From Geodermatophilus sp. YIM 151500 (lineage in GTDB: Bacteria > Actinomycetota > Actinomycetes > Mycobacteriales > Geodermatophilaceae), in the NCBI RefSeq assembly GCF_025716945.1, contig NZ_JAOVZT010000007.1, positions 1-56,212 on the forward strand: a stretch of DNA of 56,212 nucleotides. Direction: 5' to 3'. Position 1 is the stretch's first letter. Every line of letters begins with the position of its first letter. Position numbers and translations under genes: made by a program. Of the stretch, positions 28,393-42,545 are shown in pieces. Under the pieces are notes generated by a model. That model worked only from the letters and a program-made list of their open reading frames with translations. It was not told the origin of the DNA and ran no database searches.

Positions 28393-29277
28393 ATGAGCCT
28401 CACGGGTTTCCTCGATCGACTCTCGGACGTGCCCACCCTCGACCGGGCGATCGAGCCCGCGCGCACCGCCGTCCGCGCCGCCCTGCGGCCGACGGCGCTC
28501 AAGGACCTCCTGCACGGCACCTGGCTGGGCCACCCGCTGCACCCGGTCGTCATCCAGGTGCCCACGGGCAGTTGGCTCTCGGCGGGCCTGCTCGACGCCA
28601 TCCCGCCCCTGCGGCCGGCGGCGACGGTGCTCATCGGCACCGGCGTGGCGGCGTCCGTGCCCGCGGCGCTCACCGGGGCCGCCGACTGGGCCGAGCAGGG
28701 AGCGGGCGTGCGGCGGCTGGGTGCTCTGCACGCCGCACTGAACGTCGTCGCCACCGGGCTGTACGTCGGTTCGCTGGTGGCACGGGCGCGGCGCCGGGAC
28801 GGGCTCGGCCGGGGGTTGGCGTACGCCGGGCTCGCCGTGGCCACCGGATCCGCCTCGATCGGCGGCCACATGTCCTACGCGCAGTCGTCGGGTGCCTCGC
28901 ACTCCGCGGCCGCGGCGCGGGCGCTGCAGCACGACTGGATGGACCTCGGCCCGCTCGACGACTTCCCCGACGGCCGGCCGGCGCTGCGGACCGGGAGCGG
29001 CGGCAGCGCCGACGTCCCGCTGGTGGCGGTCCGGCGGGGCGCCCGTGTGGACGTGTTCGTCGGCAACTGCTCGCACGCGTCCGGCCCGCTGCAGGAGGGC
29101 ACCGTCGAGGAGCTGCGCGGACGGACCTGCCTGGTCTGCCCGTGGCACGGATCGGCCTTCGACCTCGACGACGGCACTCCGCGGCGCGGGCCGGCGGCGA
29201 ACCACCAGGAGAAGCTGGACGTCCGCATGGACGCCGGACGGGTGCTGGCCCGCCTCGCGGGGCGACACCAGGGGTGA
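28393..29277 (+). CDS. DUF2231 membrane domain fused to Rieske [2Fe-2S] domain
   Basis: A 294-residue fusion. Residues about 40-165 form a DUF2231 four-helix membrane domain starting with the characteristic GTWLGHPLHPVVIQVP and containing LGALHAALNVV and SIGGHMSYAQ. The C-terminal 100 residues form a Rieske domain with ligand pairs NCSHASG (C226, H228) and CPWHGSAFDL (C249, H252). It is presumably a membrane-bound electron carrier with the cluster on one face; the partner is unknown. Length and order match similar actinobacterial fusions. ATG 28393 is near a weak GGGG. Confidence 0.9.
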   Translation: MSLTGFLDRLSDVPTLDRAIEPARTAVRAALRPTALKDLLHGTWLGHPLHPVVIQVPTGSWLSAGLLDAIPPLRPAATVLIGTGVAASVPAALTGAADWAEQGAGVRRLGALHAALNVVATGLYVGSLVARARRRDGLGRGLAYAGLAVATGSASIGGHMSYAQSSGASHSAAAARALQHDWMDLGPLDDFPDGRPALRTGSGGSADVPLVAVRRGARVDVFVGNCSHASGPLQEGTVEELRGRTCLVCPWHGSAFDLDDGTPRRGPAANHQEKLDVRMDAGRVLARLAGRHQG

Positions 29278-29317
29278 ACGCCCCGCGCTGACGGTCCCGC
29301 GGGCGGTTGCGCCGACC

Positions 29318-29323
29318 TACGCT
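29318..29323 (+). promoter_or_regulatory. -10 box of a leaderless promoter
   Basis: TACGCT ends 7 bases before GTG 29331, placing the transcription start at the start codon. No clear -35 box at the right distance. Confidence 0.4.
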
Positions 29324-29330
29324 GCGCGTC

Positions 29331-30227
29331 GTGGGACGGGAGGCGGGGCGCTCCGCCCGCCGGGCGGCCGTCGTCGGGCTGCTGCTCGGGCTCGGCGCCG
29401 GCTGCGGTGGTGCCGAACCCGCCGTGCGCGACGGCGCCGGAGCGGCGGCGAGCCCGTCGTCCGCCAGGCCCGCGACGCCCGCCGTCCCGGCCGTGCCAGG
29501 GATCGACGCCGAGGCCATCGAGCTGCGCACGGACGCCGCCGTCGGCGGCCAGGTGCACGTGCGGATCACCAACACCGGCGCGGAGCCGTTCACGGTCACC
29601 TCGCTCGCGCTGCGGTCGCCGGGCTTCGAGCCGCTGCCCGCCGGCGAGGAGGTGGCCGGCTACGCGCCGGGCCGCACGATCGACCTGCCGGCCCCGTACG
29701 GGGACCCGGTCTGCGACGCGGACGCCGAGCCGGCCACCGTCGAGCTGACCGTCGCCCGACCGGACGGGACGACCGAGCGGCTCACCGCGCCGCTCGCCGC
29801 GGAGGCGCTGACCCGCGTCCACGGGAAGCGGTGCGCCGCCCTGGCGCTGGCCGGCGTGGTGGACGTCGCGGTGACCGGGCTGCGGGCGGACGAGGCGGGG
29901 GTGAGCGGCTCATTGACGCTGGAGCGCCGGTCGGGGACGGAGCCGGTGCGCGTGGTCCGGCTCGACCGGAGCGTGCTGGTCGAGCCAACGGCGTCCGGAC
30001 TGCCGCTGGACCTGGGCGGCGACGAGCGGTCGGCCGCGACGCCGGTATCGTTCGAGCCGGCGTCCTGCGACCCGCACGTGCTGGCCGAGACCAAGCAGCC
30101 GTTCCGCTTCCCGGTCGGGGTCGAGGTGGGGGAGCGCGAGCCGGTGGTCGTCGACCTGCCGCTCGACGAGCCGGCCCGGGCGCAGCTGACCGAGATGGTC
30201 GACCGGATCTGCACGGGACGCCGCTGA
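29331..30227 (+). CDS. hypothetical secreted or lipid-anchored protein
   Basis: About 298 residues. An Arg-rich N-terminus and hydrophobic segment VVGLLLGLGAGCGG end in a Gly-Cys that could be a lipobox (GAGC). An Ala/Pro linker and two beta-rich regions follow (VHVRITNTGAEPFTVTSLALRSPGFEP and later VSGSLTLERRSGTEPVRVVRLDRSVLV, in pieces), suggesting immunoglobulin-like domains. No family recognised. GTG 29331 sits 7 bases from a -10 box; an upstream TTG at 29307 is possible. A strong hairpin follows the stop. Confidence 0.65.
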   Translation: MGREAGRSARRAAVVGLLLGLGAGCGGAEPAVRDGAGAAASPSSARPATPAVPAVPGIDAEAIELRTDAAVGGQVHVRITNTGAEPFTVTSLALRSPGFEPLPAGEEVAGYAPGRTIDLPAPYGDPVCDADAEPATVELTVARPDGTTERLTAPLAAEALTRVHGKRCAALALAGVVDVAVTGLRADEAGVSGSLTLERRSGTEPVRVVRLDRSVLVEPTASGLPLDLGGDERSAATPVSFEPASCDPHVLAETKQPFRFPVGVEVGEREPVVVDLPLDEPARAQLTEMVDRICTGRR

Positions 30228-30675: not shown

Positions 30676-31293
30676 TCAGAGCGCGCTGGTGAGCAGGCCG
30701 AGGCCGAGGACGGCCATGACGACGGCGATGGCGGAGTCGAGCACCCGCCAGGCCGCCGGGCGGGCGAACAGGGGCCGCAGCAGCCGCGCGCCGTAGCCGA
30801 GGGCGCAGAACCAGATCACGCTGCCGACTGCCGCGCCGACGGCGAACCACCACCGCCAGGTGCCGTGGCTGTCGGCGACCGATCCCAGCAGCAGCACGGT
30901 GTCCAGGTACACGTGCGGGTTGAGCCAGGTCAGCGCGAGGCACGTCACGACGGTCGCCAGCAGGCCGGTCCGGGTGCCACGCGTGTCGACGGCGATCGCC
31001 GCCGGGTGCAGCGCCCGGCGGGCGGCGAGAGCGGCGTAGCCGAGCAGGAAGGCCGCGCCGGCCAGGCGGATCGCGGTGATCGCGTCGGGCAACCGGGCGC
31101 TGAGCCACGAGCCGCCCGCGACGCCGGCGAGGATGAGCACCGCGTCGGACACCGCGCACACCGCCACGACCGCGCTCACGTGCTCGAGGCGCAGACCCTG
31201 CCGCAGGACGAAGGCGTTCTGCGCCCCGATGGCCACGATCAGCGAGAGGCCCAACCCCAGTCCGGCCAGGGCGGCCAGCAGTCCCGTCGTCAC
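30676..31293 (-). CDS. LysE/ArgO-family amino-acid exporter
   Basis: A 205-residue, six-helix transporter of the LysE/ArgO group, which exports lysine or arginine by proton exchange. The N-terminal family signature LSLIVAIGAQNAFVLRQGL and the central TCLALTWLNPHVYLDTVLLLGS (in pieces, with the conserved NPHVYLD) are intact. Length is normal. It is divergent from a LysR regulator across 73 bp, the same arrangement as lysE-lysG of C. glutamicum and argO-argP of E. coli, so induction by intracellular basic amino acids is expected. Confidence 0.93.
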   Translation of the reverse strand: MTTGLLAALAGLGLGLSLIVAIGAQNAFVLRQGLRLEHVSAVVAVCAVSDAVLILAGVAGGSWLSARLPDAITAIRLAGAAFLLGYAALAARRALHPAAIAVDTRGTRTGLLATVVTCLALTWLNPHVYLDTVLLLGSVADSHGTWRWWFAVGAAVGSVIWFCALGYGARLLRPLFARPAAWRVLDSAIAVVMAVLGLGLLTSAL

Positions 31294-31352
31294 GGTGTTC
31301 GACGCTAGGAACGGTGCGTCCGACAGTCCAGCTCATGTTTCTTTGGCAGCGT

Positions 31353-31358
31353 TAGCAT
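31353..31358 (+). promoter_or_regulatory. -10 box of the LysR regulator gene
   Basis: TAGCAT lies 8 bases before GTG 31367 and so would give a leaderless or nearly leaderless message. The 73-bp divergent region must also contain the exporter promoter and the regulator's binding site; I could not place these reliably. Confidence 0.4.
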
Positions 31359-31366
31359 CGCTGTTC

Positions 31367-32269
31367 GTGGACGTCGACCTGGCGCAGCTGCAAACCCTGG
31401 TCGCGGTGATCGACGAGGGCACCCTGGAGGCGGCCGCGCGCCGGCTCCACGTCACGCCGTCCGCGGTGTCGCAGCGCCTGCGCGCGCTCGAGGTGGCCAC
31501 CGGCCGGGTGCTGGTGCAGCGTGGGCGGCCGGCAACCGTCACCTCCGCCGGCGAGCCGGTGCTGCGGCTGGCCCGCCAGGTCGGTCTGCTCGTCGCCGAC
31601 ACCAGCCGTCACCTCGACCCGGCCGAGCCCGGCCGCCCGCCGGTCGTGCCGATCGCGGTCAACGCCGACTCGCTGGCCACCTGGGCCCTGCCCGCGCTCG
31701 CTCCGCTGGCCGACGAGCTCCGTTTCGACCTGCACAGCTCCGACCAGACCCACACCAGCACGCTGCTGCGGGCCGGCACCGTGATGGGTGCGGTCACCTC
31801 CGACGCGGAACCGGTGGCTGGCTGCCGCGTGACGCCGCTGGGCCGCATGCGCTACCTGCCCTGCGCCGCTCCCGGGTTCGCCGACCGTTGGTTCCCGCGC
31901 GGGCCCGCCGCCGAGGCCTTGCGGTCGGCGCCGGTGGTCGTCTTCGACCGCCGCGACGACCTCCAGCACGTCTACCTGCGCCGGCACCTGCCGACGGCGG
32001 ACGTGCCGATCCACTACGTCCCCTCGTCGGCGGACTACCTTCGCGCCGTGGCCCTCGGCTTCGGCTGGGGCATGCTGCCGGAACTGCAGCTGGACCCCGG
32101 ACGTCGGCCGCGGATGCCCGGCGTCGGCGCGGTCACGCCGTTCGACCCGGCCGGCGCCGTCGACGTCCTGCTGTACTGGCAGCAGTGGCGACTGGACTCC
32201 GACCCGCTCGACCGGGTCGCCGACGCGTTGGTCCGGGCCGCGCACGCGCAACTCCGGGGTCGGGCGTGA
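31367..32269 (+). CDS. LysR-family regulator, ArgP/LysG type
   Basis: A 300-residue LysR-type regulator. The N-terminal helix-turn-helix starts DVDLAQLQTLVAVIDEGTLE and contains AARRLHVTPSAVSQRLRALE (residues about 22-41). The effector domain includes VNADSLATWALPAL, a motif particular to the ArgP/LysG subgroup, and ends with YWQQWRLDSDPLDRVADAL. It should activate the divergent exporter in response to basic amino acids. GTG 31367 is chosen because the fold starts there; a long in-frame extension upstream runs through the exporter gene and is a shadow. Confidence 0.92.
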   Translation: MDVDLAQLQTLVAVIDEGTLEAAARRLHVTPSAVSQRLRALEVATGRVLVQRGRPATVTSAGEPVLRLARQVGLLVADTSRHLDPAEPGRPPVVPIAVNADSLATWALPALAPLADELRFDLHSSDQTHTSTLLRAGTVMGAVTSDAEPVAGCRVTPLGRMRYLPCAAPGFADRWFPRGPAAEALRSAPVVVFDRRDDLQHVYLRRHLPTADVPIHYVPSSADYLRAVALGFGWGMLPELQLDPGRRPRMPGVGAVTPFDPAGAVDVLLYWQQWRLDSDPLDRVADALVRAAHAQLRGRA

Positions 32270-32400
32270 CCATGGGGCTGCCCCCGGACCGGTCGCGACG
32301 GCGACGGTATCGCCCCCTCGTGGCGTCCCTTGTAGCCTCCCCTCGTAGCCTCGACCGGTGGCCGCGGGCCAGGCGGCACCGGCCGGACCCGGGAGGGACC

Positions 32401-33303
32401 GTGATCGACGTCGAGCTCCCGCCCGGGGCGGTCTCCGATGAACTGACCCGCGGCTTCGCCGTCTGCCTGGCCTCGGTCACCGAGGTGCCCGGGACCGACC
32501 TGCCGCTGCCGGACGGCGGCCTGCGGCACGCTCTCGGAGCCTGGCGGACGTGGCTGGCCGAGCGCGGGTCGGGTCTGGTGCCCATCGCCGAGCCCGACCG
32601 GTTCCAGTGGGCCGGCTGGTGGATCGCCGTGGTGGAGCGCGGCGGTGCTGCGGGCGGCGCGGCCGGGGGAGCCGGGGCGTCCGTCCCCGTCCTGGCCTTC
32701 GGGACGCCACCCGGGGTCGTCCTCAGTCCCCAGGCGCCCGGGCTGCTGGGCCGGGCCACCGCCGAGCTGCGCATCACCGAGGCGTACGCCGTCGCCTCCC
32801 TCGACCCCGTGCTGCGCCCGGCTCCGGTCGCGCCGGAGCTGCACGGCACCGTCGAGAGCCTGGCCGTGGCCACCGTGGCCGAGGCCCCCATGCAGCTGCT
32901 CGGGACCGCACGGGCCCTCGCCGGGCGCGGCCTCGACGGCGACCGCTACGCCGCACGGGCCGGCACGTTCAGCCCGCGCGCCGGCCACCGGCCCGGGTAC
33001 GACCTGACGCTGGTCGCCGCGGAGGTGCTCGACGAGCTCGGGGCGGCGGGGCATCCGCTCGAATTCGCCGCGACCCGGCGCAACGTCCTCACCCGCGGCA
33101 TCGACGTCAACGCCCTCGTCGGGCGCACCTTCCGCATCGGGGACGTGCTGTGCGCCGGCCGCCGGCTGTGCGAGCCCTGCGCGCACCTCGAGCGGCTCAG
33201 CGGCCCCGGTGTGCTGCGACCGCTGATCCACCGGGGTGGGCTGCGGGTGGACCTCCTCACCGACGGGGAGATCCGAGTCGGAGCCCCGGTGACCGTCGTC
33301 TGA
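32401..33303 (+). CDS. MOSC-domain protein
   Basis: A 300-residue protein whose C-terminal 150 residues form a MOSC (molybdenum cofactor sulfurase C-terminal) domain. Visible landmarks are GRGLDGDRYAARAGTFSP, DLTLVAAEVLDEL, TRRNVLTRGIDVNALVGRTFRIGDV and the conserved Cys segment CEPCAHLERL, followed by RGGLRVDLLTDGEIRVGAPV. Members bind Moco or transfer sulfur; the reaction here is unknown. The N-terminal half (about 150 residues) is not recognised and is probably a family-specific extension. GTG 32401 follows GGGAGGGACC. It ends 129 bp before tRNA-Lys. Confidence 0.85.
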   Translation: MIDVELPPGAVSDELTRGFAVCLASVTEVPGTDLPLPDGGLRHALGAWRTWLAERGSGLVPIAEPDRFQWAGWWIAVVERGGAAGGAAGGAGASVPVLAFGTPPGVVLSPQAPGLLGRATAELRITEAYAVASLDPVLRPAPVAPELHGTVESLAVATVAEAPMQLLGTARALAGRGLDGDRYAARAGTFSPRAGHRPGYDLTLVAAEVLDELGAAGHPLEFAATRRNVLTRGIDVNALVGRTFRIGDVLCAGRRLCEPCAHLERLSGPGVLRPLIHRGGLRVDLLTDGEIRVGAPVTVV

Positions 33304-33432: not shown

Positions 33433-33505
33433 GGGCCTCTAGCTCAACTGGCAGAGCAGCGGACTTTTAATCCGCGGGTTGTGGGTTCGATCCCCACGGG
33501 GCCCA
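33433..33505 (+). tRNA. tRNA-Lys (TTT), integration site
   Basis: A 73-nt cloverleaf: acceptor GGGCCTC/GGGGCCC (one U:G), anticodon stem GCGGA/TCCGC around CTTTTAA, and T-arm GTGGG-TTCGATC-CCCAC. CCA is not encoded (CCG follows). A tyrosine integrase remnant lies 20 bp downstream, so the 3' end of this tRNA is the likely attachment site of a former mobile element. I did not find the second copy of the attachment repeat further right. Confidence 0.95.
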
Positions 33506-33524
33506 CCGCCTTGGAACAGCGCAT

Positions 33525-34662
33525 TTACCGTTCGGCGGAGTGTCGGCTGGCGGGCCGCGCCCACACGGCGCCCACACGCGCCTCCGCGGCTGCCCGCGCG
33601 GCGGCGTCCATCCGGTCGGCCAGCGCCGTCAGGTCGTCGTCGAGGAGGCCGGAGTGGACGTCCAGGGTCATCGCCGCCGAGGCGTGGCCAAGCATCCGCT
33701 GGACGGCCTTCACGGTGGCGCCGCTGGCAACGGCGAGCGAGGCAGCGGTGTGGCGCAGGTCGTGCGGGGTGACGTCGCTCAGCCCGGCCGCGCGCACGGC
33801 GGGATCGAAGACCTCGCGTCGCCAGTTCCGCAGGCGGAGCGGTCCGCCCTTCGGCGCGGTGAGCACCAGGTCGTCAGCGCCCTTGCCTTCGCACCGCCGG
33901 GCCAGTGCTTCCGTAGCTGCGGCCGGCAAGGGCACCGTCCGCTGTTGATGCGTCTTGGGCGTGCCGAACTCGAGCTTGCCCGCCACCTCGGTGGCGGCCT
34001 CGGCGATGACCAGTCGTCGGCGGAGGAAGTCGACGCGGCGCACCCGCAGTGCGGCCATCTCGCCGAAGCGGAGACCGGTGTAGGCGAGTAGCCGGATCAC
34101 GTCGCCGTCATCGCCGGCCGCCTCGGCGAGGTGCTCGACCTGGTCGTGAGTGAGGAACCGCGGCTCGTCGCGAGTCACCCGCGGCAAGGGGACTCGGGAG
34201 GCCGGATTGCGAGGGATGCGGCCGTCCCGCACGGCGAGGTCGAGCAGCAGTGAGAAGACGCGGTGTGCCTGCCGGACGGTGGATGGCGCAGATCCGTGCG
34301 AGCGGAGAGCGGCGACCCATGCGGCGACCTCGGCGTGGGTGACGTCGGAGAGCCGGTGCCGACCCCAGGACGGCAGCACGTGGGCCCGGAGCAGGGTGGC
34401 GTACCGGTACTGGGTGCCCGGCCCGATGCCGGTCTGGGCGGCCAGCCATCGTGCGGCCCACTCCGCGACGGTGAAGCGGCCGCGCTCGGGTGCGGTCCAG
34501 GTCCGGGTCACCGACGCCGAAGTGGTCTCGTCGAGCCAACGCTGGGCGTCGACCTTTCGTGGGAAGCGTCGTTCCTGCTGCCGACCGCTGGGGTCCCCGA
34601 TAGCGAGCGCGGTAGCGGAACGTTCCGTCGCTGATGCTCACGCGGCTGATGGAGCAGTCCAT
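33525..34662 (-). pseudogene. tyrosine recombinase (integrase), decayed
   Basis: A phage/ICE-type integrase next to tRNA-Lys. The intact part (GTG 34511 to 33525) has the core-binding domain and the catalytic segments YTGLRFGE (Arg), K in TPKTHQQRT, HDLRH and GHASAAM. The position of the catalytic tyrosine reads DVHSG, a His codon CAC at 33654-33656 where relatives have Tyr. The N-terminal domain (SDGTFRYRARYRGP from ATG 34662) is in another frame: removing one G from the run at 34590-34593 joins it to SGRQQERRFPRKVDAQRWLD and the intact part. Two independent lesions indicate a dead integrase. Confidence 0.85.
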
Positions 34663-34792: not shown

Positions 34793-35176
34793 TCAGCGAA
34801 TGACGCGGACGGTGACGCCCAGCTCGTCCGCCCACACCTCCCACGCTCGGTCTGCGGTGAACGCCACGCTCGACAGGCTTCGAGCGAGGGCCAGGCAGAC
34901 GCGATCGGCGAGGCTGAGCTTCGACTGGTGCCGGTAGAACGACGCCGCTAGGCGGGCGTCGAGGCGACCGAACGGGCTGACCGTGATCCCAAGGGCTTCG
35001 AGGGCGACGTCCACATCCTCGACCGCAACGCCTGCCCGGGCGGCCTTCTGGAGGGTCTCGGCGTAGTTGACCGCCGAGATGGTCGCGTCGTCACTGCCTG
35101 CCGCGCGGGCCACGACGTCGGCTCCCGCTTCGTCCTTGATGAGTGCGAGCAGGGCCGAGGCGTCGAGGACGATCAC
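34793..35176 (-). CDS. vapC: VapC-type PIN-domain toxin
   Basis: A 127-residue PIN-domain ribonuclease. The acidic triad is present: LDASALLALI (Asp5), NYAETLQKA (Glu about 40) and LADRVCLALA (Asp about 91), followed by AFTADRAWEVW with a further Asp. VapC toxins cleave tRNA or rRNA and are neutralised by the co-transcribed antitoxin. The GTG start overlaps the antitoxin stop as GTGA. It lies within the putative element remnant downstream of tRNA-Lys, where a toxin-antitoxin pair could have stabilised the insertion. Confidence 0.88.
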   Translation of the reverse strand: MIVLDASALLALIKDEAGADVVARAAGSDDATISAVNYAETLQKAARAGVAVEDVDVALEALGITVSPFGRLDARLAASFYRHQSKLSLADRVCLALARSLSSVAFTADRAWEVWADELGVTVRVIR

Positions 35177-35403
35177 TCGCCAGTCGGCTCCGGTCCGCGA
35201 CGGATCTCGACGACGACCTCATCGGCAATGCGTGCGTGCTCTTGGGCTGCCGCCTCCGTGTGTCGCTCGGCCAGCAACTCGTCCACAAGGTCGATCTGGT
35301 CGCCGCCGGCGTCCTTGAACTGGCGCCGGATGCGCTCGAGAGCAGCTCGACGCCGCGGGTCCCACCCGGCGAGGGGGTCCTCCTGCGATCCGGCGGTACT
35401 CAT
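35173..35403 (-). CDS. VapB-type antitoxin
   Basis: A 76-residue, acidic protein immediately upstream of and overlapping the PIN toxin gene. Its position, size and coupling make it the cognate antitoxin. The sequence is helical (ALERIRRQFKDAGG, IDLVDELLAERHTEAA) with no obvious AbrB or ribbon-helix-helix motif at the start, so its DNA-binding type is unclear. ATG 35403 is 6 bases after a predicted -10 box, indicating a leaderless message. The frame remains open further upstream but without coding character. Confidence 0.7.
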   Translation of the reverse strand: MSTAGSQEDPLAGWDPRRRAALERIRRQFKDAGGDQIDLVDELLAERHTEAAAQEHARIADEVVVEIRRGPEPTGE

Positions 35404-35691: not shown

Positions 35692-35856
35692 ATGGCCGGC
35701 AAGTCTCTCGCATGCGTGTTCGGCTTCCACGCCTACGTCGCGGAACATCCTCTGGACGAACGGCTACGAGGACCGGATCGAGCGAAGGTCTGCCGACGCT
35801 GCGGTAAGCGCAGCGAGGACAACATCGGTGGTCTGCCGCCAGTCACGTTGACCTAG
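35692..35856 (+). CDS. 54-residue protein with Cys/His zinc-ribbon pattern
   Basis: A small protein starting MAGKSLACVFGFHAYV with a second cluster KVCRRCGKRSED. C8, H13, C34 and C37 form a C-x4-H...C-x2-C arrangement that would bind zinc. Small actinobacterial and phage proteins with CxxGxH...CxxCG look alike, so this could be a genuine zinc-ribbon peptide. A TAGCGT -10 box (35680-35685) ends 6 bases before the ATG, so the gene is probably leaderless. The 280 bp to its left hold no gene I can see. It may belong to the element remnant next to tRNA-Lys. Confidence 0.55.
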   Translation: MAGKSLACVFGFHAYVAEHPLDERLRGPDRAKVCRRCGKRSEDNIGGLPPVTLT

Positions 35857-37488: not shown

Positions 37489-38904
37489 TCACCGCGGGGC
37501 TCCGGGGATGGTCTCCTCCGCATCGGGTGCGGGAGGGCGCGTGCTCCGGGGCAGGATCGTCGGCGGGCGCCCGGCGGGGGCGCGGCCCTCGGTCACCTCC
37601 TGGTGCGCCGTCTCGAACGCGATGATCCGGTTGCCGCGGGTGTGCGACAGCCACAGCGCGCGGGCCCAGGTGTAGAGCGTGCCGAGCCGGTTGCCCCAGC
37701 CGACCAGGTACAGCACGTGGATGAAGACCCACATGACGTAGGCCGGGAAGCCGATCACCTTGACCCCGAAGGCGTCGGCGACGGCCGAGCGGTAGCCGAT
37801 GGTGGCCATCGTGCCCTTGTCGAAGTACCGGAACGGCGGGGTCTGCCGGCCGGCGAGGCGGTCCTTGATCACCCGCCCGACATACTTGCCCTCCTGGATG
37901 GCCGGCTGGGCCACCCCGGGCAGCTTGTCCAGCGCCACCATGTCGCCGATGGCGAACACCTCGGGATGGCCCGCCACCGTGCAGTCCGCGCTCACCGGGA
38001 CCCGGCCGGCGCGGTCGGTCTCGACCCCGGCGTGCCCGGCGAGCATGCGGGCCAGCGGCGAGGCCTGGACGCCGGCGGCCCAGAAGCGGCTGCCGGTCCG
38101 GATCGTCTCCAGCCCGTCCGGTCCCTTGACCGTGATCGACTGGTGGTCCATGTCGACGGCCAGGGTGTTCAGCCGCACCTCCACGCCCATCTCCTCCAGG
38201 CGTTTCTGGGTGTACGCCTGCAGCTTGGGCGCGAACGGGGGCAGGACGGCTCCCGCCCCCTCCAGCAGGATGATCCGGGCCTGGCGGGTGTCCGCGGAGC
38301 GGTAGTCCCGCGGGAGGACCGTGTGCGCCAGTTCGGCGATCTGCCCGGCGAGCTCGACCCCAGTCGGCCCGGCCCCCACCACCACGAAGGTCAGCCACTC
38401 CGCCCGCTCGGCCGGGTCGGTGGCGATCTCGGCCATCTCGAACTTGGCCAGGATCGCGTCGCGGACGTACCGGGCGTCCTCGATGGTCTTCATGCCCGGC
38501 GCGTATTCGGCGAAGTGGTCCTTGCCGAAGTAGGAGTGCGTCGCCCCGGCGGCGACGACGAGCGTGTCGTAGGGCAGCTCGAGCAGCCGCCCGTCCGGTG
38601 CCCGGGCGCCGACCAGCCGCCTATCGAGGTCGAGGTCCTGGACGTCCGCGAGCAGCACCCGGGCGTTCCGCTGCCTCTTGCTGATGCTGCGCAGCGCCGG
38701 CGCGATCAGGCCCGGAGGCAGGATGCCCGTCGCCACCTGGTACAGCAGCGGCTGGAACAGGTGGTGGTTCGACCGGTCCACCAGGGTCACCTCGACGTCG
38801 GCACCCGCGAGGGCCCGGGTGACGTTGAGCCCGCCGAACCCGCCCCCGACCACGACGACCCGGTGCCGCCCGGTCGTGGACTGCCCGGCTCCGACCGTCC
38901 CCAT
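37489..38904 (-). CDS. ndh: type II NADH dehydrogenase (NDH-2)
   Basis: A 471-residue non-proton-pumping NADH:menaquinone oxidoreductase. The FAD-binding motif VVVVGGGFGGLNVTRAL is at residues 16-32. A second dinucleotide fold reads VVVGAGPTGVELAGQIAELA, and the quinone-side segments PGVAQPAIQEGKYVG and ATIGYRSAVADAFGVK are family-typical. A C-terminal amphipathic/hydrophobic region with YVMWVFIHVLYLVGW anchors it to the membrane. ATG 38904 follows AGGAGGGGG. It is probably the first gene of an operon with the aldehyde dehydrogenase. Confidence 0.92.
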   Translation of the reverse strand: MGTVGAGQSTTGRHRVVVVGGGFGGLNVTRALAGADVEVTLVDRSNHHLFQPLLYQVATGILPPGLIAPALRSISKRQRNARVLLADVQDLDLDRRLVGARAPDGRLLELPYDTLVVAAGATHSYFGKDHFAEYAPGMKTIEDARYVRDAILAKFEMAEIATDPAERAEWLTFVVVGAGPTGVELAGQIAELAHTVLPRDYRSADTRQARIILLEGAGAVLPPFAPKLQAYTQKRLEEMGVEVRLNTLAVDMDHQSITVKGPDGLETIRTGSRFWAAGVQASPLARMLAGHAGVETDRAGRVPVSADCTVAGHPEVFAIGDMVALDKLPGVAQPAIQEGKYVGRVIKDRLAGRQTPPFRYFDKGTMATIGYRSAVADAFGVKVIGFPAYVMWVFIHVLYLVGWGNRLGTLYTWARALWLSHTRGNRIIAFETAHQEVTEGRAPAGRPPTILPRSTRPPAPDAEETIPGAPR

Positions 38905-39302
38905 GACGCCACCCCCTCCTGCCGGGCCGCCGACCGGGCCCGGAGGCCCTCCTCGGCCGGCAGCTCCTGCTGATCCGCGCGCGCCTCGCCGCCCGGTCGG
39001 GCGACGAGGCACACAGCGGCGGGACGTCCCGCATGCTAGGGCGTGCGCCGTAGGTCAGCGCGTTCGTCGTGATCGCGGCTTGGCTGTTTCGACGTCCGCC
39101 CCGTCCCGTCGGGCGATGCCTCCGGTCGCGGATCGGCGCGGCCTTTTCCGGTACGGCGGGGCCACGGAATGTCTACCGTGCGGTCGTCGGGCACACGCGA
39201 CCGGGAGGTGCGTCATGACCGGACCGTGCGCTCGGATCCGCGCCCGTGCGGCCCGCCCGACGGTCGGCCCGCAGCACGGGCGCCCGACGAGGGAGGTGTT
39301 CG
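38905..39302. other. divergent intergenic region
   Basis: No gene is supported in these 398 bp. They must contain the NDH-2 promoter (minus) and the promoter of the membrane-protein gene (plus). A TACCGT at 39174-39179 is a possible plus-strand -10 box. A plus-strand ATG at 39218 with GGGAGG upstream opens a frame, but it runs as a shadow through the following gene. Confidence 0.4.
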
Positions 39303-39808: not shown

Positions 39809-40654
39809 TCAGCCGTCGAGGAACCGCTCGACCACCGGTGCGAGCTGCGTCGCCTCCGTGACCAGCGCGAGGTGGCCGCCGCGGTACACGTGCAGCTCCG
39901 AGCGCGGGATGAAGCGCGCCATCACCCGCGCGTTCACCACCGGGATGATCGGGTCGTCGTCGCCGCAGAGCACCAGCGTCGGCTGCCGGATCAGCCCGAG
40001 GAACGGCAGGCTGCTCCACCCCGTGCCTGCCGCGAGCTGGTAGTAGTAGCCGCGCCGCGGGCCCAGCCGGGTCGCCGCGTGCAGCGCCCGCGCGGCCCGC
40101 TCCGGATCGAGCCGCACCGTGCCGCCGTACAGCTCGCCGGCGATCCGCCGCGCGTACTCCGGGTCGCGGTGCCGCCGCGGAGTGAGCATGTGCGCCAGCA
40201 CCCGGGGGTGCGCGGGCACCATCAGCGTGCCGGTGCCGGTCGCGGCCAGCACCAGCCGTCGGCAACGCCGCCGGTGCTGCACAGCGAAGTGCTGCGCGAG
40301 CCCGCCGCCCCACGACAGGCCCAGCACGTCGACCGGCCCGGGCAGGTCGAGGCGGTCGAGCAGCGCGGCCACGACGGGGCTGAAGGTCGCGTAGAGGTAC
40401 GGGACGACGGGTCGCGGCGATCCGCCGACTCCGGGCACGTCGAAACGGACGACGGTGCGCACGGGGTCCAGCGCGTCGACGAAGGGCTGGAGCACCTCCA
40501 GGCTCGCCCCGAGGCCGTTCATCAGCAGCAGCGGCGTCCGGTGGTCCGTACCGGGGCGGACGGCGACCCGCAGCGTCCGGCCCCCCGCGACGACCGTCCG
40601 CACCGTCTCCCGCCGCCCCGGTGCGGGCGGGAAGGACTCACTTGTCGAGGACAT
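39809..40654 (-). CDS. phaZ: alpha/beta hydrolase, PHA-depolymerase-like
   Basis: A 281-residue alpha/beta hydrolase resembling intracellular medium-chain PHA depolymerases. The oxyanion segment LLLMNGLGASLE, the nucleophile elbow GLSWGGGLAQ (Ser about residue 114), the acid in LCGDDDPIIP and the catalytic His in YRGGHLAL are in order. It follows the PHA synthase gene and its ATG overlaps the synthase end by 17 bp, indicating co-translation. Synthase plus depolymerase would make and mobilise storage polyester. An alternative start is GTG 40672. Confidence 0.82.
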   Translation of the reverse strand: MSSTSESFPPAPGRRETVRTVVAGGRTLRVAVRPGTDHRTPLLLMNGLGASLEVLQPFVDALDPVRTVVRFDVPGVGGSPRPVVPYLYATFSPVVAALLDRLDLPGPVDVLGLSWGGGLAQHFAVQHRRRCRRLVLAATGTGTLMVPAHPRVLAHMLTPRRHRDPEYARRIAGELYGGTVRLDPERAARALHAATRLGPRRGYYYQLAAGTGWSSLPFLGLIRQPTLVLCGDDDPIIPVVNARVMARFIPRSELHVYRGGHLALVTEATQLAPVVERFLDG

Positions 40655-42545
40655 ACGTCCCCGGCGCGTCACCGAGCACCTCGAGCGGCCCGGCCAGGTC
40701 GGTCGGTGCCGGCACCTCGTCGCCGCAGCGCTCGCCCAGCCAGGCCACGAAGTCCGGCCACCACGACCCCTGCACCGTCTCCGCCGCGGCCATCCACCGC
40801 TGCGGGTCCTCCGGGGTCTCCTCCGCCACCTGGAAGGTCGCCTTCTTGTTCCCCGGCGGGTTGACCAGCGAGGCGATGTGCCCGCTCGTGGACAGCACGA
40901 AGCGGTTGCGCCCGCCGAGCAGCTGGGTGCTCCGGTAGCAGGACTGCCACGGGCAGAGGTGATCGGCGATGCCGGCGGTCAGGTAGGTGTCGACGGTGAT
41001 GGTCGAGAGGTCCACCGGCGTGCCGAGCATCGTCGTCGCGCCGGGCTGGGTGAGCCGGTTGCCGAGGGCGACGTCGATGAAGTCGCGGTGCAGGGCCGCC
41101 GTCATCCGCGTCGTGTCCGCGTTCCAGAACAGGATGTCGAAGGCCGGCGGCGGCTTGCCCTGCAGGTAGTTGTTGACCCAGTAGCTCCACACCAGGTCGT
41201 TGGGCCGCAGCCAGGCGAACACCTCGGCCAGCGTGGCGCCGTCCAGGTACCCCTTCTTGCGGGACTTCTCGATGGCCTCCTCGATGGCCTTCTCGTCGAT
41301 CAGCGCGGCGACGGTGCCGGCCCGCGCCCAGTCGAGCACGGTGACCGCGAGGCTGGCGGCGGCCACCCGGTCCTGCTGCCCGATCGCGGCCAGGTGCGAC
41401 AGCAGCATCGCGGTGATGATCCCGCCGGAGCAGAAGGCCTGGAGGGCGACGCGGTCGCTGCCGGTCGCCTGCTCGACGGCGTCCATCGCGTCGAGCACGG
41501 CCTGGCCGTAGGTGTCCAGGCCCCAGTCGGCGTGCCGCTCGTCGGGGTTGCGCCAGCTCATCATGAACACCTGCTGGCCCCCGGCCACGTAGTGCTCCAC
41601 GATGCTGCGCCCGGGTGCGAGGTCGGCGATGTAGTACTTGTTGATCGTCGGCGGCACCATCAGCAGCGGCACCGCGCGGACGGTCTCCGTCGTCGGGCGG
41701 TACCGGATTAGCTCGAACACCGGCGTCCGCAGGACGACGACGCCCGGCGTGACCGCGAGGTCGTCGCCGACGGTGAAGGCGTCCGGGTCGACCATCGCCG
41801 GGATCCGCGGCGGCGAGGCCAGGTCCGACACGAGCCGCCGCAGCCCCGTCACCGCGTTGCGGCCGCCGGTGTCGATGACGGCCTTCCACATCAGCGGGTT
41901 GACCACCGGCACGTTGCTCGGCGCGAGCGCGTCGACCAGGTTGGTGAGCGAGAAGCGCATCCGCTCGTCGTCCCGCCAGTCCAGGTCGGCGTCGTCCATG
42001 AGCTCCCACGCCGTCCGCGCGGTGGCGAGGTGGGCCTGCATCGCCCGGCGCAGCAGCGGGTTGCCCGTCCAGGCCGGGTCGGTGAAGCGCTTGTCCTTCG
42101 GCGACGGTGCCAGCTCGGACCGGCCGGCGACGACCCTGGCCAGCTCCTGCGCCAGCCCGCCGGAGCGCCGGACGACGGTGCCGGGGCGGCGGGCCAGGGC
42201 GGCGCCGAAGCGCAGCGCGGTGCCTGCGGGCGGTACCAGCCGGCGGATCGGCCCCCGCGCGACGTCGACGAGGACCATGTCCAGGCCGGTCGCCGCCTCG
42301 ACGGCGTCGGACTCGGGCCCGTCGGCGCCCCGGCCGCCGCGCGGGTCCGCCGCGGAGGGTGGGGTGCCGCCGGCCCCGGCCGCGCGGGGCGGCGGCCCGT
42401 CCTTCTCGGCCGCGCCGGGGGACGGGCTGCCCTTGTCGGCCGCACCGGCCGATGCGGCCCCGCGCGCCGGGCCCCGCCGCGCGCCCCGGCCGGAGGGCCG
42501 AGCGGTTCCCCGCGTACGGCTGCGGTCGGACGCGCTCCGGGTCAT
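40638..42545 (-). CDS. phaC: poly(3-hydroxyalkanoate) synthase
   Basis: A 635-residue PhaC-type polymerase. An N-terminal low-complexity region of about 90 residues (Gly/Ala/Pro/Arg) precedes the PhaC N-terminal domain (DPAWTGNPLLRRAMQAHLATARTA, split) and the alpha/beta-hydrolase core (PPTINKYYIADLAPGRSIVEHYV). The lipase-box-like nucleophile reads AFCSGG (Cys about 372), where classic synthases have G-x-C-x-G-G, so the first Gly is replaced by Ala. The Asp and His segments GIADHLCPWQSCY and STSGHIASLVNPPGNKKA are intact. Pattern and length fit class II-like synthases. ATG 42545 follows AGGAGC. Confidence 0.88.
   Translation of the reverse strand: MTRSASDRSRTRGTARPSGRGARRGPARGAASAGAADKGSPSPGAAEKDGPPPRAAGAGGTPPSAADPRGGRGADGPESDAVEAATGLDMVLVDVARGPIRRLVPPAGTALRFGAALARRPGTVVRRSGGLAQELARVVAGRSELAPSPKDKRFTDPAWTGNPLLRRAMQAHLATARTAWELMDDADLDWRDDERMRFSLTNLVDALAPSNVPVVNPLMWKAVIDTGGRNAVTGLRRLVSDLASPPRIPAMVDPDAFTVGDDLAVTPGVVVLRTPVFELIRYRPTTETVRAVPLLMVPPTINKYYIADLAPGRSIVEHYVAGGQQVFMMSWRNPDERHADWGLDTYGQAVLDAMDAVEQATGSDRVALQAFCSGGIITAMLLSHLAAIGQQDRVAAASLAVTVLDWARAGTVAALIDEKAIEEAIEKSRKKGYLDGATLAEVFAWLRPNDLVWSYWVNNYLQGKPPPAFDILFWNADTTRMTAALHRDFIDVALGNRLTQPGATTMLGTPVDLSTITVDTYLTAGIADHLCPWQSCYRSTQLLGGRNRFVLSTSGHIASLVNPPGNKKATFQVAEETPEDPQRWMAAAETVQGSWWPDFVAWLGERCGDEVPAPTDLAGPLEVLGDAPGTYVLDK

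Follow-up and report, generated by a model that had tools for sequence, protein, structure and literature searches.

The DNA examined here (the window, the first 56,212 bases of contig C51 in a 4.77-Mb assembly of 53 contigs) has an integrase gene with a broken reading frame next to an intact tRNA-Lys gene, with a toxin-antitoxin pair beyond it. This arrangement raises the question of whether the locus is what remains of an integrative element and, if so, whether that element could still leave the chromosome. The features concerned are as follows.

33433 to 33507, plus strand: intact tRNA-Lys(TTT) gene, called by ARAGORN.
34662 to 33525, minus strand: decayed tyrosine integrase gene, with an ATG at 34662, a TAA stop codon at 33525-33527, and a frame broken at ~34590-34599.
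34793 to 35176, minus strand: open gene for a VapC-like PIN-domain toxin (PF01850, E = 1.8e-14), overlapping the gene upstream of it by 4 nt.
35173 to 35403, minus strand: putative VapB antitoxin gene (76 aa), whose homologs neighbor VapC in 8 of 9 homologous loci.

We favor, with a probability of roughly 0.8, the reading that the remnant is the left end of a decayed tRNA-Lys element, its integrase recently inactivated, its attR gone, VapBC left behind, and site-specific excision no longer available to it.

The integrase matches PF00589 (E = 1.4e-23) and phrog_1 (E = 2.7e-64), and its closest named matches in the genome-contig set (best 80 of 549) are from Blastococcus, Modestobacter, and Geodermatophilus, all genera of Geodermatophilaceae, which is presumably the family of the window as well. 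It is encoded on the strand opposite the tRNA, and 17 nt separate its stop codon from the tRNA gene. Comparison with relatives reveals three lesions.

34590 to 34599, minus strand: G/C run that differs in length from relatives by a net one base in the DNA alignment, shifting the first ~22 codons out of the frame of the rest.
33654 to 33656, minus strand: CAC (His) codon, GTG on the plus strand, at the position that the alignment assigns to the catalytic Tyr.
33508 to 33560, minus strand: linker between the integrase domain and the tRNA, altered in length (173 nt between the SAAMTLD codon and the tRNA, versus 171 nt in relatives).

To place the catalytic residues, the window protein was aligned by tblastn to 196 loci, comprising 80 genome contigs (best 80 of 549), 80 viral contigs (best 80 of 329), and 36 loci from a genome search, with some genomes present in more than one set. 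Tyr occupies the catalytic position in 190 of the 190 relatives that cover the site (79/80, 80/80, and 31/36, respectively), and no other residue is seen there; the remaining six loci (L183, L002, L003, L007, L008, and L037) did not align over it. The catalytic residues R, K, H, R, and H are all retained. Thus, of the hallmarks of an active recombinase, the R-K-H-R-H set is present, while the Tyr nucleophile and a single frame that includes the N terminus are absent. Four codons downstream of the mutated Tyr codon, Phe is replaced by Leu, which is also found at that position in L117, one of the 14 relatives printed in the alignment.

The N terminus of the window integrase, MDCSISRVSISDGTFRYRARYR, lies in one frame and the subsequent DPSGRQQERRFPRKVDAQRW in another, whereas intact relatives such as L009 read MDGSITRITLSDGSTRYRARYRDPGGRQHERRFARKVDAQRW in a single frame. 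When the protein of an intact relative is used as the query, the window likewise yields residues 1 to 24 and residues 23 to 370 in different frames. The original prediction, made from the letters of the window, was that the catalytic tyrosine codon reads CAC and that the N-terminal domain is out of frame. Both claims hold, and the break it placed at 34590-34593 agrees with ours within the ambiguity of the G/C run.

The third lesion concerns the tail. In all 15 intact tRNA-Lys copies examined (L009-L013, L274-L276, and L279-L285, with 12 distinct sequences over this stretch), the integrase frame extends along the antisense strand of the tRNA and ends within it, and the spacing is a constant 171 nt (170 nt where ARAGORN counts a 76-nt tRNA). 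In the window the spacing is 173 nt, and the frame ends before reaching the tRNA.

Sequencing or assembly errors in a gene that is intact in the organism might account for any single lesion, and the N-terminal break falls in a G/C run. However, the three lesions are of different kinds, including a substitution in a catalytic codon and a two-base difference in the linker, and two of them lie outside homopolymers, which makes a purely technical cause unlikely. As no attR was found either, we regard such errors as a very improbable explanation. Our preferred reading is that an integrase of the Geodermatophilaceae tRNA-Lys clade was hit, probably recently, by an early frame break, the loss of its tyrosine, and a frame change in the tail, and that its product would be inactive.

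An integrated element should be bounded on its far side by a second copy of the attachment core. Partial second copies of the tRNA in relatives indicate that this core corresponds to the 3' part of the gene, at tRNA positions ~31 to 75 (33463-33507). Such copies, starting at positions 26 to 38 and reaching 74 or 75, are present in at least 29 of 76 family genomes (own genome included), two of them, in G037 and G015, at only 90 to 92% identity. The distance from the tRNA to the second copy is 20.6 kb in G048 and G033, 28 kb in G047, and 6.8 kb in G054. The tRNA-Lys locus is an insertion hotspot.

A search for a second tRNA 3' end to the right of 33505 had been proposed with the original prediction; none was found in the window or the assembly. 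Exact matches within the window all fall short of 11 bases, and the last 25 bases of the tRNA, with up to 3 mismatches allowed, occur at one place only in the whole assembly. Two other weak tRNA matches in the genome span positions 8 to 62 and 8 to 56 only and do not include the 3' end. Between 33508 and 39812, local alignment for a degenerate attR gave best scores of 12.0 (plus strand) and 11.0 (minus strand), compared with a mean of 12.2 and a maximum of 16.5 for 60 mononucleotide shuffles, and thus no signal; a degenerate attR might nevertheless escape the searches made here. To the right of the integrase, the contig continues without a break for ~150 kb, reaching base 183,400 or beyond, and it is therefore unlikely that an attR close by was missed because of an assembly gap. 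The far boundary of the element therefore seems, from the sequence, to have been lost, probably by deletion or erosion of the right end. Excision needs attR and none was found, so a helper integrase should not remove the remnant; lacking a partner site, site-specific excision would probably be impossible even with help supplied in trans. That the element cannot excise itself, as originally predicted, is well supported, given the lost tyrosine, the out-of-frame N terminus and tail, and the failure to find attR.

How much of the neighboring DNA belonged to the element depends on where the conserved chromosome resumes, which was judged from two anchors.

28393 to 30227, plus strand: two genes often found to the left of tRNA-Lys in relatives (tblastn), the left anchor.
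39809 to 40672, minus strand: PHA-depolymerase-type hydrolase gene (TIGR02240), the first window gene also found to the right of tRNA-Lys in relatives, the right anchor.

Among 25 fetched tRNA-Lys regions, many of which include only ~3 kb of left flank, homologs of the left-flank genes at 28393 and 29307 were found in 12 and 15, respectively. The hydrolase gene and the PHA-synthase-like gene next to it lie 4 to 39 kb from tRNA-Lys in 13 genomes (both on one contig), and the hydrolase gene is on a different contig from tRNA-Lys in, for example, G016, G006, and G024; the fetched regions were chosen partly for holding the hydrolase gene. Both flanks are common to relatives and the interval between them differs, which supports insertion. 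We infer that an integrative element once entered at the 3' end of the tRNA-Lys(TTT) gene.

The fetched tRNA-Lys regions all lack counterparts of VapBC, an aldehyde dehydrogenase gene, an NDH-like gene, and the gene at 39246. The right boundary can thus be confined to somewhere within ~33.5 to 39.8 kb and not placed more closely. Homologs of the NDH-like and aldehyde dehydrogenase genes, considered as boundary markers, are not at the tRNA-Lys locus in the fetched regions and yielded no boundary. The G+C profile, with a mild dip to 68 to 70% over ~34.5 to 36.5 kb, is too blunt for this purpose, and tblastx synteny scans were swamped by compositional noise; single-protein tblastn was used in their place.

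Several observations on genes around the locus may be recorded separately. A 54-aa open reading frame with a CxxC motif, presumably zinc-ribbon-like, lies at 35692-35856 between VapB and the aldehyde dehydrogenase gene, and has no homolog at an E value of ≤0.01 in the regions searched. The best relative of the NDH-like gene (37489-38910) is 74% identical and was found in 1 of 59 genomes searched (own genome included); its remaining listed matches are at most 59% identical. Genes for LysE, LysR, and MOSC proteins lie to the left of tRNA-Lys in the window (30676-33303) and to the right of it in G018 (L087, 3759-6132), so that the block has switched sides of the tRNA.

The VapBC pair lies in the interval that separates the integrase from the right anchor, the first conserved gene on that side. 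It has the layout expected of such a locus, a PIN-domain toxin gene preceded by a small overlapping partner gene, and the predicted VapB has no match in Pfam, PHROGs, PADLOC, or NCBIfam. VapC homologs are sporadic, being found in 13 of 112 family genomes at an E value of ≤1e-15 (own genome included). Nine other VapC loci (L289-L296 and L101) were examined. At L289 (5474-9148), VapBC is part of a 3.6-kb element that runs from a tRNA-Ala gene to a perfect 53-bp repeat of the 3' end of that gene; the integrase and VapBC lie at opposite ends of the element. At L290, VapBC lies between a tRNA-Arg gene and a 48-nt repeat (93.8%), and at L101 it adjoins an integrase, with the genes ordered and oriented as in the window. 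The association is looser elsewhere: at L294 both an integrase and a tRNA repeat are present, with VapBC outside the nearest repeat; at L291 a tRNA adjoins VapBC, with no integrase recognized and no tRNA repeat; L292 and L293 have weak recombinase-like matches only (35 to 36%); and neither an integrase nor a tRNA repeat was seen at L295 and L296. The VapC homolog at L101 (2484-2857; genome G014) is itself split over two frames.

These comparisons bear on whether VapBC was carried by this element at all. In the 25 fetched regions that contain an entire tRNA-Lys gene, among them the ones carrying the closest intact integrases, neither VapC nor VapB occurs, and the pair could therefore have come independently, as a separate arrival or a chromosomal locus that lies beside the dead integrase by chance; the unmapped right boundary leaves room for this. 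The sporadic distribution of VapBC and its presence in tRNA-bounded integrase elements at L289 and L290, and beside an integrase at L101, argue against a separate origin, which we consider possible but doubtful. The pair is most likely leftover cargo of the element, so that the original prediction on this point is plausible but unproven.

It had also been claimed that VapBC is now fixed in the chromosome. This is an overstatement, as the loss of the integrase and attR removes site-specific excision and leaves ordinary deletion and recombination possible. As leftover cargo, VapBC would now be kept in the same way as any chromosomal toxin-antitoxin locus. With a broken integrase, a far att site that could not be found, and a toxin-antitoxin pair left, the locus is a clean example of element decay at a tRNA hotspot.

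To establish how common such decay is, 21 copies of the tRNA-Lys integrase clade, including that of the window, were compared. A tRNA-Lys gene adjoins 18 of the 20 other copies (genome-search loci), L277 and L278 being without a tRNA, and the closest copies have the same tRNA-Lys and the same orientation as the window integrase. The next integrase clade, 72 to 73% identical, sits at tRNA-Met. L023, in which a contig end truncates the integrase, was set aside and not scored as broken; another piece of an integrase of this kind lies on a second contig of that genome. Four of the 20 assessable copies are frame-broken (window, L019, L278, and L288), and the window integrase is thus an ordinary instance of decay in a common kind of element. 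The window's own genome also holds a second, more distant integrase relative (C53:148364-148975; L002), which is 63% identical to the window integrase over residues 83 to 286 and likewise has a frame break next to the Tyr codon.

The dN/dS ratio between the window integrase and eight relatives is 0.14 to 0.24, which is within the range of 0.11 to 0.32 for pairs among six intact relatives. This suggests that purifying selection acted on the gene during most of its past and that its breakage is recent. A low dN/dS ratio, together with core and catalytic domains that stay open for 328 codons and retain the remaining catalytic residues, might also be expected if the damaged gene still gave a useful protein, such as a DNA-binding repressor without recombinase activity. 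Nevertheless, open frames are cheap at ~73% G+C, the N-terminal part is out of frame, recent loss accounts for the low ratio, and the share of broken copies within the clade fits decay, so that we find a retained function hardly credible. Recent inactivation, as in the preferred reading, remains our account of the gene.

The overlap of the integrase frame with the tRNA in intact copies invites a further proposal. Over the linker, variable sites are spread evenly across the three codon positions (12, 12, and 13 among the 12 distinct sequences), giving no coding signal, and the constant spacing may thus reflect a DNA site rather than the protein. Nor is overlap rare in itself: in 53 of the 80 genome-contig loci the integrase stop could be used and a tRNA lay no more than 500 nt away, and in 17 of these the stop falls in or beyond the start of the tRNA (7/8 for tRNA-Lys and 10/45 for other tRNAs).

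Att cores away from the tRNA were then read in the integrase frame with their own neighboring bases. In genomes with the tRNA-Lys clade, 9 of 13 right-end cores stop after 21 residues, at 7 residues beyond the shared core (L044, L046, L048, L102, L297 at 19185, L298, L300, L301, and L303 at 2127); the integrated form stops after 22. The other four do not conform (L092, in which the frame is shifted by one base, L302, L049, and L304). The same is true of two further degraded cores at loci already named (L297 at 3045 and L303 at 3585) and of six right ends in genomes that lack the clade (L085 and L305-L309). In G110, G114, G024, and G050, core and integrase are on different contigs, and their pairing is presumed. 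This pattern would fit an att core inside the 3' end of int, such that integration would swap the last 7 element-encoded residues for 8 from the antisense strand of the host tRNA and could tune integrase activity; the window copy would then be missing this tail in addition to its tyrosine. We put this forward as a speculative and rather unlikely proposal; a conserved DNA motif around the stop explains the right-end pattern equally well. The intact sister clade in Geodermatophilaceae, with its integrase frame entering the tRNA, offers a testable case.

The arrangement can be set against several known systems. In phage Mx8, attP lies within int and integration changes the C terminus of the integrase (PMC6070905, PMC4701971, and PMC4383910). 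The intact relatives are similar in that their int frame enters the att core, and integration would alter the last residues. They differ in that the predicted change comprises only ~7 to 8 residues and 4 of 13 right ends do not fit, and the window integrase differs further, as its frame no longer reaches the core.

In the Islander definition (PMC4383910), a tDNA island consists of a tDNA and a displaced tDNA fragment flanking an intact integrase. In the window, by contrast, the tRNA gene is intact, no fragment was found in the window or the assembly, and the integrase is broken. Decayed islands and dICEs are described as elements without an extremity or with defective signature genes (PMC4701971), and the window likewise has an integrase pseudogene and one missing extremity. 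In the window, only the integrase and perhaps VapBC are left.

Actinobacterial tRNA-targeting integrases of the AICE and prophage types share with the window integrase the placement and orientation relative to a tRNA 3' end, the R-K-H-R-H residues, and an att core in the tRNA; the window differs from them in having His for Tyr, an out-of-frame N terminus, and no attR that could be found. In a published survey of AICEs, excision could still be detected for one whose int is truncated (PMC3218068). A dead integrase alone is therefore not decisive, and the missing attR is the stronger argument that the remnant cannot excise. The same survey reports that AICE integrases closely related to each other use tRNA-Lys or tRNA-Met (PMC3218068), a pairing that matches the two neighboring integrase clades described above.
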